Virus record (IMG/VR): IMGVR_UViG_3300021962_009901
Coordinates: 1-24,068 of that record
Reading direction: 5' to 3' (one strand)
DNA from: a virus
DNA: 24,068 nucleotides
Part shown: positions 137 through 24,068 of the stretch, in pieces
How positions within the stretch are numbered: the first letter of the stretch is position 1
How the letters are laid out: each line of letters begins with the position of its first letter
Program-made: the position numbers and the translations under genes
The notes under the pieces: generated by a model
The model's input: only the letters and a program-made list of their open reading frames with translations
What the model was told of the DNA's origin: nothing
Database searches by the model: none

Positions 137-165
137 TTGACTTCTCCAAGTCAAACCCTTATAAT
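137..165 (+). promoter_or_regulatory. sigma70-type (early) promoter
   Basis: TTGACT (137-142) and TATAAT (160-165) are separated by exactly 17 nt, close to the bacterial housekeeping consensus. The expected start is near 172, about 16 nt before the ATG of the first small gene. It lies just after the tRNA pair and would give host-polymerase transcription of the small genes downstream. Confidence 0.65.
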
Positions 166-187: not shown

Positions 188-403
188 ATGACTCTCACAG
201 CAAAATTCAAGAAAGACGTTCAAACCCTTCGCGGTGCAGCAAATGGCGAATTCTACCTTGATGTAAAGAATCCGAAACTCTACAAAAAGGTTCGCCGCTA
301 TTACGAAAACGAAGGTGTAGTGTTCTCTGGTGATCCTCTAGATGATTATGAGATGCTTATGGAATATGTTCTTGCTGATCTTGAATCCGTTGAAGTTGCA
401 TGA
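188..403 (+). CDS. small hypothetical phage protein, 71 aa
   Basis: I do not recognise a named family. The reading frame extends upstream to 89 through the tRNA, but the ATG at 188 is the sensible start: it lies just downstream of a consensus promoter and begins a compact, charged protein (MTLTAKF...). The product is soluble, basic in its N-terminal half and acidic in its C-terminal half (many Asp/Glu after residue 50), with no signal peptide or membrane segment. Its stop overlaps the start of the next gene by 4 nt (ATGA), so the two are translationally coupled. It resembles the small conserved proteins of unknown function common in T4-like cyanophages. The function is unknown. Confidence 0.8.
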   Translation: MTLTAKFKKDVQTLRGAANGEFYLDVKNPKLYKKVRRYYENEGVVFSGDPLDDYEMLMEYVLADLESVEVA

Positions 404-651
404 CAACACGACTTCCTAAAGTTCTTTTGGAACGTGAAGGATATCGATTTGTGGAAGTTGGTATTCTTGAAATCAATGGTAAGCCAGATTACCGTATGCA
501 AAAGCAAAATGAATACACTAAACGCTGGAATGACATTTATCTGTTTGATAATGTTCTTCAATGTTCTACTGCTATGGAAGACATTGACTATGCACGTTGG
601 CTTGACCCAGACAGAGTACCTTGCTACGTTAAGGATGATGATGAAGAGTGA
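400..651 (+). CDS. small hypothetical phage protein, 83 aa
   Basis: The ATG at 400 overlaps the upstream stop in an ATGA arrangement, which supports both genes being real and coupled. The product is a soluble 83-residue protein with an aromatic-rich middle (RWNDIYLF) and a strongly acidic tail (DDDEE). No catalytic motif is recognisable. The short overlap and the shared promoter at 137-165 suggest an early phage operon of accessory proteins. The function is unknown, and the call as a gene rests on coding-like composition and coupling. Confidence 0.78.
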   Translation: MTTRLPKVLLEREGYRFVEVGILEINGKPDYRMQKQNEYTKRWNDIYLFDNVLQCSTAMEDIDYARWLDPDRVPCYVKDDDEE

Positions 652-685
652 GATATAGATAAATAATATAAAATAATCTATATCT
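651..685 (+). promoter_or_regulatory. stem-loop immediately before the HNH gene
   Basis: AGATATAGAT (651-660) is a perfect 10-bp inverted match to ATCTATATCT (676-685), with a 15-nt AT-only loop. The hairpin begins at the last base of the upstream stop codon and ends one base before the ATG at 687, so in readthrough RNA it would cover the translation start region. No good Shine-Dalgarno is visible. Blocking hairpins before homing endonuclease genes are known in T4 (I-TevI). The role here is inferred. Confidence 0.6.
658..665 (+). promoter_or_regulatory. late-promoter-like octamer inside the hairpin
   Basis: GATAAATA matches seven of eight bases of the T4 late consensus TATAAATA and fits the looser NATAAATA form I recall for cyanomyoviruses. 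It straddles the left stem and loop of the hairpin. A transcript starting a few bases downstream would lack the left stem arm and could not form the hairpin. The region is very AT-rich, so a chance match is possible. Confidence 0.38.
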
Positions 686-686
686 T

Positions 687-1073
687 ATGTATAAAAACCA
701 AGCAGATGCTAATGCCAAAGCAAGAGAACTTTATAGAAAAAATACTAAAAAGTACTCATTAAAAAATAAAGAAAAAAGAGAAAATCGCAGAAAATTAATT
801 TATGAAGCACTTGGAAATAAGTGTGTTGAGTGTGGATCTACTTCAAATTTAGAAATAGATCACATAAATCCTTCTCTAAAAGAAAATAGAATTTCTCCAT
901 TGGCACAAGGATTATCAAAAACATTAGATGACGATAATCTTCAACTGTTATGTCATTGTTGTCACACCAAAAAATCAAAATATCAAAGAAATGCTGCTTG
1001 GAATTTGTTCAGGAGTTTGTCTCTTGAAGAACAAAATAAATTAATACAAAAAGAAAAAGAGAAGGATGAGTAA
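687..1073 (+). CDS. HNH endonuclease (free-standing, homing-type)
   Basis: A 128-aa protein with a Lys-rich N-terminal half (residues 1-38) likely to contact DNA, followed by an HNH nuclease domain. The zinc-ribbon pairs are C46-x2-C49 and C89-x2-C92. The metal-binding core is EIDH (D58, H59), with the conserved Asn at N84 and the final His at H93. Free-standing HNH genes of this size are common in phages as selfish homing endonucleases that cut a genome lacking the gene; a packaging or repair role is less likely. It lies between small phage genes on the same strand. The upstream hairpin with a late-promoter-like element suggests restricted, late expression. All catalytic positions are intact, so it is probably active. 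Confidence 0.88.
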   Translation: MYKNQADANAKARELYRKNTKKYSLKNKEKRENRRKLIYEALGNKCVECGSTSNLEIDHINPSLKENRISPLAQGLSKTLDDDNLQLLCHCCHTKKSKYQRNAAWNLFRSLSLEEQNKLIQKEKEKDE

Positions 1074-1369: not shown

Positions 1370-1501
1370 ATGACCCCTTATGAGTTTCTTGCTTCTCTCA
1401 AGAGCAAGTGGTGCGGATGGGGAATTCTTTCTCCGCCTGGTTTCCAATTTCCAGTTAAAGAATTGGTGGCGAGCCTGAGTTACTTGAGAGGAGTTGCATA
1501 A
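1370..1501 (+). CDS. possible 43-aa protein
   Basis: The ATG at 1370 has a good Shine-Dalgarno GGAG (1361-1364) five bases upstream, and the reading frame ends at a TAA (1499-1501) in the loop of the intrinsic terminator. The peptide (MTPYEFLASL...) is amphipathic, contains one Cys and a Pro/Gly-rich middle, and matches nothing I recognise. A frame starting at 1380 and ending at 1478 is an alternative but lacks a ribosome site. It is too short to be confident from sequence alone; the ribosome site and the terminator placement are the main support. Confidence 0.42.
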   Translation: MTPYEFLASLKSKWCGWGILSPPGFQFPVKELVASLSYLRGVA

Positions 1502-1514
1502 ACTCCTCTTTTTT
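1487..1514 (+). terminator. intrinsic terminator ending the small-gene block
   Basis: AGAGGAGTT (1487-1495) pairs perfectly with AACTCCTCT (1501-1509) around the loop GCATA, followed by six T (1509-1514). It closes the left block before the glycan cluster and overlaps the stop codon of the 43-aa frame. Confidence 0.85.
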
Positions 1515-20471: not shown

Positions 20472-21941
20472 ATGAAACTCAAACAACTGATGCTTGCACC
20501 TGTTGCTCTGGGAATGGTTGCTCCTGTTGCTGCTAATGCCACAGATCTTAATATGACTGCAGTCAACCAATATGCAACCTCTGAGCAGGTCACAAGCGTT
20601 ACTCAACTTTCTGATGTGCAACCTACCGATTGGGCATACCAGGCACTCAGCAACCTCGTAGAGCGTTATGGTTGCGTTGCTGGTTATCCTAACGGCACCT
20701 TTGGTGGTGGTAGTGCAATGACTCGCTACGAGGCAGCAGCACTTCTGAATGCTTGCCTTGACCGTGTTACTGAAAATACAGATGAACTTAAGCGTCTTGC
20801 TAATGAGTTCCGCAATGAACTTACCGTAATTCAAGGTAAGGTTGCAGGTCTGGAAGCACAAGTTACCACTCTTGAAGCACAACAGTTCTCTACTACTACC
20901 AAACTGCGTGGTGAAGCAAACTTTGTTCTTGGTGGTGTTGATGATTATCAGACCAAAGGTGGTGATGTAACTCACACCGCTTTTAACTATGATCTCCGTC
21001 TGAACCTGGATACTTCATTCACTGGTAAGGATCTGCTTCGCACTCGTCTGCGTTCATCCAACTTCAGTGGTGATCCTTTCGGTTCTAGTTCTTCTTTGTT
21101 TAAACTAGATAAGGCAGACAGCACTATTAGTGAAGTTGGCAACAATGTAGTGATTGACCGTCTCTACTATTCGTTCCCTGCTTTCAATAACAGTACGACT
21201 CTGACTGCTGGTGCTCTGGTTCGTAATACCGAAATCTCTTGGCTGCCTACTGCATACAAGTCTGGTATTCTTGACTTCTTCTCCGTTGCTGGTACTCCTG
21301 GCGTCTATAACAAGGCAGTTGGTGCTGGTTTCGGTGCTCAGTACGGCACAAAAGGTCTTATTGCTGGTATCAACTATGTTGCACAAGCAGGTCAAGATAG
21401 CACTCGTGGTGAGTTTGATGAGACTGGTGCTCTGAATACTCTCGCACAAATCGGTTATCGTGGTACTAACTGGGGTGCTGCATTCGGTTATCGTTATGGT
21501 ACAGAAGGCACTCGCGTTCGCACCTACAACGGTTTGAATGGTGCTTCTGGTGCTCTGGTTCCTGGTCAAACCTCTAATGGTTATGCACTGAATGCTTACT
21601 GGCAGCCTGAGAAAGCAGGTATTATCCCTTCTGTCTCTGCTGGTTATGGTTGGAACACTGTAAGTGGTACTGAAAGTGCTGCTACCAACAGTCAGTCCTG
21701 GTTCGCTGGTCTTCAGTGGGAAGATGTGTTTGTTGGTGGTAATTCCGCTGGTGTTGCTATCGGTCAGGCACCTACTGGTGAGAACCTTGAGAAGGCAACG
21801 ATGCTTGAGATCTTCTACAAGTATCAAGTATCTGATAACATCAGTGTCACTCCTGCTATTATCTACGGTAGTGATAACCAACGTCTTGCTGGTAACTCTT
21901 CCAACTGGGGTGGTGTGATTCAAACCACGTTTAAGTTCTGA
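20472..21941 (+). CDS. cyanobacterial-type SLH-domain outer-membrane porin
   Basis: A 489-aa precursor. A signal peptide covers residues 1-23 (MKLKQLMLAPVALGM..., cleavage after ANA). An SLH domain lies at about 45-98 (DVQPTDWAYQAL, GYPNGTFGGG, MTRYEAAALLN), followed by a coiled-coil-prone stretch (100-138) and a long beta-barrel of the OprB-like porin type rich in Gly/Tyr/aromatic strands, ending in the terminal Phe (TTFKF) needed for outer-membrane insertion. It matches the SomA/Slr1841-type porins of cyanobacteria, which bind peptidoglycan through SLH and carry solutes such as ions. The GC content is higher than the glycan genes, consistent with a separate origin. In a phage it could change host uptake or mask/replace a receptor; both are inferences. 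Confidence 0.9.
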   Translation: MKLKQLMLAPVALGMVAPVAANATDLNMTAVNQYATSEQVTSVTQLSDVQPTDWAYQALSNLVERYGCVAGYPNGTFGGGSAMTRYEAAALLNACLDRVTENTDELKRLANEFRNELTVIQGKVAGLEAQVTTLEAQQFSTTTKLRGEANFVLGGVDDYQTKGGDVTHTAFNYDLRLNLDTSFTGKDLLRTRLRSSNFSGDPFGSSSSLFKLDKADSTISEVGNNVVIDRLYYSFPAFNNSTTLTAGALVRNTEISWLPTAYKSGILDFFSVAGTPGVYNKAVGAGFGAQYGTKGLIAGINYVAQAGQDSTRGEFDETGALNTLAQIGYRGTNWGAAFGYRYGTEGTRVRTYNGLNGASGALVPGQTSNGYALNAYWQPEKAGIIPSVSAGYGWNTVSGTESAATNSQSWFAGLQWEDVFVGGNSAGVAIGQAPTGENLEKATMLEIFYKYQVSDNISVTPAIIYGSDNQRLAGNSSNWGGVIQTTFKF

Positions 21942-22313: not shown

Positions 22314-22377
22314 AACATCAGTTGCCTTCTTCGTTCTGTTGGCAGCATCCGTTGAAAAAATTTGCGAGACTTACTAA
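22291..22377 (+). CDS. possible 28-aa single-helix membrane peptide
   Basis: ATG at 22291 to TAA at 22377 encodes a 28-residue peptide with a hydrophobic run ([15 protein letters not shown]) and a short polar end (VEKICETY). It resembles in kind, but not in sequence, the small single-helix subunits of photosystems and cytochrome b6f. The ferredoxin ATG begins on the last base of its stop codon, an arrangement of coupled genes. Against it: no good ribosome site, and a promoter candidate overlaps it. It may be a real tiny membrane protein or a chance frame. Confidence 0.42.
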
Positions 22378-22670
22378 TGACCGTTTTTAATGTCACTCTT
22401 CAATCTCCCGATGGCACCGAAACTACTATCGAATGTGCTGATGACCAGTATATCCTTGAAGCAGCAGAAGAGGCAGGTATTGACCTCCCTTCATCGTGTA
22501 AGGCAGGTGCTTGTTCCGCTTGTGCAGGAAAACTCATCTCTGGCACCATTGATAACGAAGAACAATCGTTCCTTGATGATGATCAACAAGCAGAAGGTTG
22601 GGTTCTCACTTGCGTTGCTTATCCCACAAGTGATTGTGTGATCCTGACTGAGCAGGAAGAAAACCTGTGA
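22377..22670 (+). CDS. petF: plant-type [2Fe-2S] ferredoxin
   Basis: A 97-aa protein, the exact size of cyanobacterial photosynthetic ferredoxin. The iron-sulfur ligands are C41, C46, C49 and C79 in the standard CxxxxCxxC ... C spacing, in the context [15 protein letters not shown] and [11 protein letters not shown]. Acidic residues dominate the surface, including DDDQ and a C-terminal EQEE, as in photosystem I electron acceptors. It accepts electrons from photosystem I and gives them to reductases; in cyanophages it can serve phage bilin reductases. The ATG at 22377 gives the standard N-terminus, while the frame extends to 22362 without reason. Confidence 0.95.
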
Positions 22671-22945
22671 GTACTGCTGGTATGCTAGGGCAATTTGCAA
22701 TTGCTCTTGAAACACTTGGGTGGGATAAAGATGATGACATCTCAGTTGAAATTGGTGGTGTAGCAGTAACAGGAACTGCTACCAGTCCAAATGCAAATCC
22801 AAAATGGGCAAAACCTTTTGGAACAATTACCTATCAAAACGATGCTTTCATCGTAATTAAAAACAAGTCAAGGAACCCAGTTGTTCCTTCACAACCAAAT
22901 CCTGAACTCAAACAAAAACATTTTTATCAAGGAGAAAAACAATGA
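22667..22945 (+). CDS. small hypothetical protein, 92 aa
   Basis: GTG start at 22667 overlapping the ferredoxin stop by 4 nt (GTGA); an ATG at 22682 is a less coupled alternative. The protein has a central segment of alternating hydrophobic residues ([14 protein letters not shown]) suggesting a small beta structure, and a Pro/Asn/Lys-rich C-terminal tail. No family is recognised and there is no signal peptide or membrane segment. It is sandwiched between ferredoxin and a second hli with overlaps on both sides, so it belongs to the same photosynthesis-linked operon. The function is unknown. Confidence 0.72.
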
Positions 22946-23049
22946 ACGAACGCGCAGAACGTATTAATGGTTGGGCAGCAATGATTGGTATTGTTGCCGC
23001 AATGGGTTCTTATGCCCTCACTGGACAAATCATTCCTGGTATTTGGTGA
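22942..23049 (+). CDS. hli: short high-light-inducible protein, 35 aa
   Basis: ATG at 22942 with a perfect Shine-Dalgarno AAGGAG (22929-22934) seven bases upstream; TGA at 23047-23049. The peptide is essentially only the Hli helix: AERINGWAAMIGIVAA followed by YALTGQIIPGIW, the C-terminal signature of marine cyanobacterial and phage Hli. Where the family has ExxNGR, here it reads E6-x-x-N9-G10-W11, so the Arg is replaced by Trp. It overlaps the upstream stop by 4 nt and is followed by the peroxiredoxin ribosome site. It is probably a thylakoid photoprotective peptide; the missing Arg makes pigment binding less certain. Confidence 0.9.
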   Translation: MNERAERINGWAAMIGIVAAMGSYALTGQIIPGIW

Positions 23050-23060
23050 TGGAGGTTAAA

Positions 23061-23588
23061 ATGCGTAAAGAACAATATCAAGTTCCCCAAGTGGAGTTTG
23101 TATTTCGTGAGAATGGTGAGTTTGTAAATCGTACATCCGCAGAACTATTCAATGGGAAGCGCGTGGTCATTTTTAGCCTGCCTGGTGCTTTCACTCCTAC
23201 TTGCAGTGCCTATCAGTTACCTGGATTCGAAGAGAAATATGACGACTTTCGTAGTCTTGGCATCGACGATATTTACTGCATCTCTGTTAATGATGGGTTT
23301 GTAATGAATGCCTGGGCACAGGACCAGAACATCAAAAATGTAAAACTCATTCCAGATGGCAATGCATATTTCACACGCTCTATGGGAATGCTTGTCACTA
23401 AGTCCAACCTTGGTTTCGGTGATCGGTCTTGGCGTTATGCTGCGGTCGTGGATAACGGAATCATCGAAAAACTATTCGTTGAGGATGGGCAGCGGGATAA
23501 TGCAGAAACCGACCCTTACGAGGCGACTACTCCAGAAGTGGTTCTTGATTACGTAAAATCTACAGTACGAGAAACTGTTACTGCTTGA
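23061..23588 (+). CDS. peroxiredoxin, Prx5 type
   Basis: A 175-aa thioredoxin-fold protein with the Prx5 active site PGAFTPTC (41-48), where C48 is the peroxidatic Cys and T45 the helper. Downstream are YQLPGFE, ISVNDGFVMNAWA, and TRSMGMLV containing the conserved Arg. It reduces hydrogen peroxide and organic peroxides, using glutaredoxin or thioredoxin as electron donors. The start at 23061 has a strong Shine-Dalgarno GGAGG (23051-23055); the frame extends further upstream through the hli gene but that part is not coding. Its place after ferredoxin and hli genes suggests protection of infected cells from light-driven oxidative stress. Confidence 0.92.
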   Translation: MRKEQYQVPQVEFVFRENGEFVNRTSAELFNGKRVVIFSLPGAFTPTCSAYQLPGFEEKYDDFRSLGIDDIYCISVNDGFVMNAWAQDQNIKNVKLIPDGNAYFTRSMGMLVTKSNLGFGDRSWRYAAVVDNGIIEKLFVEDGQRDNAETDPYEATTPEVVLDYVKSTVRETVTA

Positions 23589-23622: not shown

Positions 23623-23629
23623 ATAAATA
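23622..23629 (+). promoter_or_regulatory. T4-type late promoter
   Basis: A perfect TATAAATA lies 26 nt before the next ATG and directly after a terminator. In T4-like phages this octamer is recognised by RNA polymerase carrying the phage sigma (gp55) with the sliding clamp. No -35 is needed or seen. Its placement in a short intergenic space supports function. Confidence 0.78.
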
Positions 23630-23654: not shown

Positions 23655-24068
23655 ATGACCCTAGATCTTCATAACTTTTTTAAGTTTTATGATGATAGTA
23701 ATGAGAACCATGTAGCAGCGGTTCAGTGGTTGGAGGATAATCTACCTGCTCAGTTTTTAGATGATGCAGAAACAGATTGGATTGGAATTTTCAGAACTAA
23801 GCCCCCTACACCAGCAGTTCTTGCAGTTCCATATTTCAATCAAGTAGATAACTACAGAGATGCACATAGAACTTGCAACTCTTCATCGTGCGCTATGTGT
23901 CTTGCTTTCCTCAAGCCAGGCAGCATTAAAGGTGACGATGAGTACGTTAAGAAAGTATTTGCAATTGGTGATACAACGGACCATGCCGTACAGACGAAGG
24001 TTCTGGCAGGTTATGGCGTTAAGTCACACTTTAGTTACAATTTATCTTTTGCTGATATCGATAAAAGT
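23655..24068 (+). CDS. C39-like cysteine peptidase family protein (partial, runs off the window)
   Basis: ATG at 23655, open to the right edge (138 codons, no stop). The first 55 residues have no known fold. From about residue 56 the sequence VLAVPYFNQVDNYRD followed by TCNSSSCAMCLAFLK (73-87) has the form of Peptidase_C39_2 proteins (VPYxxQ ... TCNxxSxAM), with C74 as the likely catalytic Cys. A later HAVQTKVLAGYG is the usual helper region. Similar proteins in cyanophages are annotated as VrlC-like or as virion-associated peptidases or muralytic enzymes. The late promoter upstream supports a structural or lysis-time role. The end and any C-terminal domain cannot be seen. Confidence 0.72.
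   Translation, partial: MTLDLHNFFKFYDDSNENHVAAVQWLEDNLPAQFLDDAETDWIGIFRTKPPTPAVLAVPYFNQVDNYRDAHRTCNSSSCAMCLAFLKPGSIKGDDEYVKKVFAIGDTTDHAVQTKVLAGYGVKSHFSYNLSFADIDKS

Follow-up and report, generated by a model that had tools for sequence, protein, structure and literature searches.

In a 24,068-nucleotide virus record, the whole of which we analysed and refer to as the window, an RNA hairpin with an embedded late-promoter-like octamer is predicted directly before the start of an HNH endonuclease gene. On the best reading of this arrangement, which we consider likely, the hairpin is a translational lock of the endonuclease gene and the late promoter is its key, a late switch of the type known from T4 I-TevI. 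The features of the locus are listed here.

38 to 112: tRNA-Met
137 to 165, plus strand: candidate sigma-70-type (early) promoter, TTGACT-17-TATAAT, 11 of 12 consensus matches, upstream of the operon
188 to 403, plus strand: small ORF, phrog_552 (E 7e-26), first gene of the proposed read-through unit
400 to 651, plus strand: small ORF, phrog_481 (E 7e-40), whose stop codon touches the hairpin
648 to 688, plus strand: predicted RNA hairpin of 13 pairs (648-660 with 676-688), taking in A and U of the HNH ATG
651 to 660, plus strand: left arm of a perfect 10-bp repeat, AGATATAGAT, 100% complementary to 676-685
658 to 665, plus strand: late-promoter-like octamer GATAAATA (of the NATAAATA type), overlapping the left arm
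671, plus strand: predicted late transcription start, placed 6 nt past the octamer
676 to 685, plus strand: right arm, ATCTATATCT, which would be unpartnered on the late RNA
687 to 1073, plus strand: HNH endonuclease gene, 128 aa (PF01844, E 1.2e-8, above the cut-off; phrog_4234, E 4e-14)
1122 to 1349: phrog_2318 ORF
1380 to 1480: wcaG RNA (RF01761, 97 bits)
1486 to 1510, plus strand: intrinsic-terminator-like hairpin, the sole match of the terminator scan in 1-2100

Bases 1-1600 of the window have matches in 252 phage records; 246 carry the names Synechococcus, Cyanophage or Prochlorococcus, and the remaining six are Marine virus (five) or uncultured (one). Promoter-like sites are about as frequent in 1-2100 as in shuffled sequence (8 versus 7.5), and the site at 137-165 tops them by two matches. 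The terminator scan of 1-2100 found no terminator-like site between it and 1486. RNA started early at this candidate promoter would read through phrog_552 and phrog_481 into the HNH gene. It would hold both arms of the repeat, so that the region of the start codon would be paired, ribosomes would be largely excluded and little endonuclease would be made. T4 late transcripts start 6 nt after the octamer. If the late RNA polymerase of this phage likewise starts a few bases past GATAAATA, in the loop (near 671), the late RNA would lack the left arm, its start region would be open and endonuclease would be made. One weak point of this scheme is that the stem has the stop codon of phrog_481 at its base, where a terminating ribosome could melt the hairpin.

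Other features of the window deserve mention in their own right. Directly before the strong wcaG match, at 1292-1371, lies a second, weak wcaG-like sequence, which scores 21.7 bits and so falls short of the gathering score, 42. At 1075-1121, immediately 5' of the phrog_2318 ATG, there is a conserved AGTC-ACGGATG-GACT...CTGGTCGGGAGCAAACCCC element, variants of which were seen by eye upstream of other genes that follow phrog_481 (loci L100, L107, L115 and L151). One pair of its first stem is changed on both sides in 4 of 13 sequences, no Rfam match overlaps it at E up to 1, and it may be an undescribed structured RNA. Farther along, the window carries a full-length SLH/OprB porin gene (20472-21941; OprB E 1e-11, SLH E 7e-8), which six phage records match, with full coverage only in S-SRM01 (two accessions, 71% identical). 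It is followed at 22362-23588 by ferredoxin (Fer2) and peroxiredoxin-like (Redoxin) genes near each other, possibly host-derived redox genes.

The preliminary description had noted a perfect 10-bp inverted repeat filling the gap between a stop codon and the HNH ATG, with a late-promoter-like octamer overlapping its left arm, and both observations held. The arms are separated by 15 nt. The final base of the phrog_481 stop codon (TGA, 649-651) is the first base of the left arm, and ATAAATA begins 28 nt upstream of the HNH ATG at 687. The octamer occurs as a single exact copy in the window when both strands are searched, and ATAAATA occurs only twice (at 659 and 23623) where shuffles give 13.4 copies, both times on the plus strand and shortly 5' of the ATG of an ORF. 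The second ATAAATA (23623-23629) lies just after a terminator-like hairpin and ends 25 nt before an ATG at 23655, a plain late-promoter layout. According to PMC2984593, NATAAATA is the late promoter of cyanophages.

The RNA fold of 645-695 has a predicted energy of -12.2 kcal/mol (z -4.07; 1 of 200 shuffles equally stable). The arrangement of hairpin and octamer is beyond chance, though the stem by itself is not extreme for DNA so rich in A+T. A pattern search for the arm with the octamer returned seven stretches, six of which precede an HNH gene of the window's family. The seventh (L017) lies in another contig with no ATG directly after it, a sign that chance alone can produce the motif. Searched by DNA similarity, 620-720 had only weak, partial matches in the phage collection, those listed being in phages of other hosts. 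No Shine-Dalgarno-like 4-mer (GGAG, GAGG, AGGA or AAGG) lies at -16 to -5 of the HNH start, so the stem does not take the form found with intron endonucleases, in which a Shine-Dalgarno sequence is paired, and this is a second weak point of the scheme. Such an absence is usual in cyanophage late leaders, since by the same test only 52 of 266 have such a 4-mer and 214 do not.

To express the arrangement as a number, we calculated a switch score, defined as the free energy needed to open the start region (-10 through the start codon) on read-through RNA minus the same cost on late RNA. Read-through RNA was modelled from 35 nt upstream of ATAAATA and late RNA from 6 nt past the octamer. For the window, in which the predicted 13-bp stem takes in the AU of the AUG, the cost falls from 12.4 kcal/mol on read-through RNA to 0.8 on late RNA, a score of 11.65. 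The score is 11.6-11.7 for every assumed start from 668 to 674, each of which removes 651-660. When the octamer and the ATG were kept fixed and the flanks were dinucleotide-shuffled, the mean score was 3.7 and 12 of 2000 shuffles reached 11.65.

As a positive control, we scored two T4 stretches, 59 kb in all. The genes e (15.5, or 12.9 from the upstream octamer), I-TevI (12.4), I-TevII (11.5), segB (10.0) and 49 (8.7) stood out, and the window's score falls among these values. The first four are named as switches in the reviews PMC2988022 and PMC3014915; gene 49 is counted here as a switch on the basis of a cited title. The remaining three late ORFs in these stretches scored 0.8, 0.2 and -0.1. 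The score of 0.2 belongs to I-TevIII, which PMC2988022 counts among switches of this type, so that the score missed this switch, whose T4 copy is defective. No ATAAATA was found within 80 nt of T4 mobB, mobC, mobD or mobE. Recovering five T4 switches in 59 kb makes the score usable on whole phage collections.

We then considered late leaders in nine cyanophage genomes totalling 1.90 Mb (S-SRM01, S-SKS1, S-SCSM1, RN05-S, DSL-LC03, P-SSM2, S-B05, Sf-CH1b and SynMITS9220M01). They contain 523 copies of ATAAATA, and for 319 of these (61%) an ORF of at least 60 codons begins 18-60 nt downstream. Seven of nine control heptamers of similar make-up gave 10-17%; the other two, AATAAAT (24%) and TAAATAA (40%), both overlap ATAAATA by six letters. 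The nine genomes provide 300 late-ORF leaders, or 266 after near-duplicates were removed. The window's score is reached by four of the 266, and three of these four belong to genes for endonucleases of the HNH, endonuclease VII or homing type. Isolates with strong leaders are S-SKS1 (58,148), DSL-LC03 (40,846) and RN05-S (110,106). When only ORFs of up to 400 aa are considered (193 leaders), such endonucleases account for 8 of the 20 top-scoring leaders versus 2 of 20 drawn at random from the other 173, one of the eight (S-SRM01 207,773) counting only if a second ATG is the start. Counting every PHROG match labelled endonuclease, the figures become 9 of 20 versus 5 of 20. Left uncounted in the first comparison were one phrog_447 protein with homing-endonuclease matches among the top 20 and, among the random 20, one phrog_447 protein, one phrog_452 nuclease, a head-closure protein with a weak phrog_15427 match and a GIY-like protein without any family. 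Twelve of the top 20 were thus not counted as endonucleases; genes for a baseplate wedge protein and for assembly of an L-shaped tail fibre are in the top 20, as are others whose function is unknown.

Because the Pfam GIY-YIG model missed several GIY-like genes of S-SRM01, endonucleases were classified first by motif and afterwards with PHROG scans. Classification by motif took a head-tail adaptor for HNH-like and overlooked two of the endonucleases among the six top leaders; with it, a score of at least 4 is reached by 7 of 17 endonuclease-like leaders versus 30 of 249 others (Fisher p 0.004), and 9 of the 17 score below 3. In an earlier test of the pairing energy across the predicted start site, the median was -9.6 for 10 Pfam-defined endonuclease leaders and -2.9 for 320 others (p 0.0045), 38 of which lie at -8 or below. 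High switch scores are therefore enriched among endonuclease leaders and are not exclusive to them, and several cyanophage endonuclease leaders have the octamer without a strong stem. At one HNH-type gene (L222, S-SRM01 207752), ATAAATA begins only 12 nt before one possible ATG; use of that ATG would give a leaderless late mRNA.

Within the window's own HNH family, six distinct leaders could be compared (the window, L001, L002 with the identical L003, L004, L005, and L015, which stops at a contig edge). The left arm and the octamer are unchanged in all six. Three paired positions vary, on the 3' side, 69 of 72 cells pair (95.8%), and L001, L002 and L005 (three of the six) have one mismatch each. 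Predicted opening costs are 8.0-12.9 on read-through RNA and 0.8-1.1 on late RNA, except 4.5 for L005; these values used an octamer index shifted by one base, which moves the window from 12.43 to 12.58. The preliminary description had proposed a check for covariation in the stem, and among these close relatives there is none. None of 12 pairs is changed on both sides in the six sequences, and the HNH gene of Sf-CH1b (42% identity), the nearest more distant cyanophage relative found, has neither an octamer before its start nor such a stem. The HNH proteins of the close relatives are 95-99% identical, so the cassette is young and its conservation says little. IMG/VR relatives (6 loci by single protein, 41 by alignment) include nothing between 95% and 48% identity, and the window family alone therefore cannot decide the matter. 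In all 36 further HNH loci from the alignment search (hosts unstated), no ATAAATA was found between -150 and +200 nt relative to the assumed start.

A second family of HNH genes, which we call A3, was defined by an alignment of genes related to those of RN05-S, DSL-LC03, L236 and L239. It comprises at least 80 loci (L398-L477) on IMG/VR contigs, with hosts mostly unstated. From the 80 listed, 64 were used and gave 36 distinct leaders; 14 loci without the octamer, several of which still show stems by eye, and two without a start were left out. In the 36 leaders the distance from ATAAATA to the ATG is 24-38 nt, and stem sequences vary widely. We exchanged left and right arms among 25 representatives, clustered at <80% left-arm identity and excluding leaders hand-picked for high score. 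The true pairs sum to -346.9 versus a mean of -217.3 for permuted pairs, and 0 of 20000 permutations were as good, a result that was the same with 19 representatives (70%) and with 15 (60%). Switch scores are at least 5 in 19 of the 36 leaders and below zero in 7, some of which have a stem clear of the ATG.

For 30 of the 36 A3 leaders the HNH stop codon has the start of a tRNA gene no more than 20 nt away, and the downstream tRNA often overlaps the stop, by up to 18 nt. Two leaders hold a partial copy of the 5' end of the downstream tRNA-Val (L407, copy score 17 against a maximum of 12 in 200 shuffles; L405, 12 against 11), and on this likeness the left arm of their hairpins may have been borrowed from the target tRNA. 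HNH genes of other families (51 records) include further cases with an octamer about 27-30 nt before the ATG, within a stem in L229, L245 and L247 and without one in L220. TILVLNSSYEP-type HNH genes (L223-L227, L226 being a duplicate) have no octamer before the start.

There are at least two other ways to account for a stem at this position. The octamer could be a real late promoter and the hairpin a by-product of A+T-rich surroundings with no regulatory role. The 12 flank shuffles of 2000 that give an equally strong switch fit this account, as do the pair-breaking changes tolerated in L001, L002 and L005 and the several cyanophage endonuclease leaders with an octamer and no strong stem. A mere by-product would not be expected, however, to score as high as the T4 switches, to come from a set of top leaders enriched in endonucleases, or to have counterparts in A3, whose arms bind their true partners much more strongly than exchanged ones (0 of 20000 permutations as good); we consider it unlikely. 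The hairpin could also serve translational coupling, in which ribosomes that reach the end of phrog_481 (649-651) melt the stem and reinitiate at 687; the hairpin would then tie HNH synthesis to phrog_481 rather than delay it. The stop codon does touch the left arm, 35 nt before the ATG, and PMC2988022 describes coupling as proposed for T4 mobE. Coupling, however, has no need of a late promoter inside the stem, and in T4 segB and the tRNA-wedged HNH genes the same arrangement follows a tRNA gene, with no ORF ending at the stem. We give this explanation very little credence.

Comparison of phrog_481 loci suggested how the proposed lock and its key came to the locus together with the HNH gene. 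From the best 80 of 577 and the best 80 of 282 relatives, together with other loci, we obtained 157 rows representing 82 distinct loci, 5 with the HNH gene and 77 without. The distance from the phrog_481 stop codon to the phrog_2318 ATG is 470 with the HNH gene and mostly 45-50 without it. The left arm with the octamer (GATATAGATAAATA) was found within 150 nt of the phrog_481 stop in none of the 77 HNH-less loci listed, and ATAAATA in one (L087). Fifty-one of the 77 are clean empty sites, with the next element no more than 6 nt past the stop; some of the others carry inserts of another kind. One named phage with the empty site is S-SRM01. The absence of the arm from all listed HNH-less loci, together with the difference in spacing, indicates that hairpin, promoter and gene arrived together as one unit.

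652 to 1073, plus strand: cassette of hairpin, late promoter and HNH gene, about 422 bp, from the locus comparison, with exact edges ambiguous because similar sequence lies at both ends

The encoded protein has the HNH domain PF01844, a Pfam scan found no GIY-YIG domain in it, and relatives carry empty sites; judged from these sequences, 687-1073 is probably a mobile, freestanding HNH homing endonuclease gene.

The same comparison bears on two further explanations of the repeat. It could be a DNA operator at which the endonuclease represses its own late promoter, as for I-TevI, which according to PMC2988022 binds an operator over its late promoter. The repeat does overlap the octamer, and an operator can coexist with the switch reading. 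As an alternative to the switch it earns hardly any credence, since none of the 77 listed HNH-less loci has a left-arm copy in the 150 nt next to the phrog_481 stop, which gives no sign of a shared homing-site sequence, and the stems of another family pair as RNA. That the hairpin is a transcription terminator or RNA-processing hairpin ending phrog_481 agrees with its place just past the stop codon and is scarcely credible, as it has no T-run, was not picked up by the terminator scan, which reported only 1486-1510 in 1-2100, and is absent from 77 of 77 listed loci with phrog_481 and no HNH gene, having arrived with that gene.

Taken beyond the window, the lock-and-key reading leads to a broader proposition, which we regard as evenly balanced: that throughout the T4-like cyanophages freestanding endonuclease genes share a general expression module, evolved anew repeatedly, in which a hairpin covers the start and its loop holds a late promoter. 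HNH families with no relation to one another would each have their own stem, the module would move with the gene as a cassette and, in the tRNA-wedged family, the 5' arm would sometimes be copied from the target tRNA. If so, half of the switch would come from the landing site itself. The switch reading of the window would in itself bring a classic T4 control device to the T4-like viruses of cyanobacteria, and it suggests that these selfish genes generally need to delay synthesis of the endonuclease, the delay not being peculiar to T4 introns. With their many different stems, natural phages also offer a set of cases in which to test how such a switch is put together, and put together again once its gene has moved.

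The I-TevI-like logic put forward in the preliminary description agrees with the energy change, the position of the octamer, the T4 comparison, the cassette and the recurrence; covariation in the stem failed to appear among close relatives, and the claim that the switch is new for the HNH class falls. The mechanism is already known, HNH genes included, as PMC2988022 lists the HNH endonucleases I-TevIII and Aeromonas phage Aeh1 mobE. In cyanophages the switch appears to be unreported in the open-access titles and abstracts searched and in passages of PMC2984593, PMC3037559 and PMC5931967, a survey that takes in few subscription papers.

The T4 td intron endonuclease I-TevI resembles the window in that ATAAATA lies 30 nt before the ATG (28 in the window) and the stem is lost on late RNA, with predicted opening costs falling from 13.9 to 1.4 (12.4 to 0.8 in the window). 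It differs in being a GIY-YIG enzyme encoded inside a group I intron, in hiding a Shine-Dalgarno sequence, and in that PMC2988022 and PMC3014915 report its switch from experiment, whereas the window's is a prediction. T4 gene e (lysozyme) also has late octamers near the 5' strand of a start-hiding stem (PMC3014915) but, unlike the window's probably mobile gene, is not mobile. Aeh1 mobE is, like the window's gene, a freestanding gene of the HNH class, and by the description in PMC2988022 its promoter and RNA structure are arranged in a similar way; it differs in being inserted in nrdA. T4 segB, although a GIY-YIG gene, shares with the window a freestanding endonuclease gene, a stem and an ATAAATA 29 nt before the ATG, and, like the A3 family, it lies among tRNA genes.
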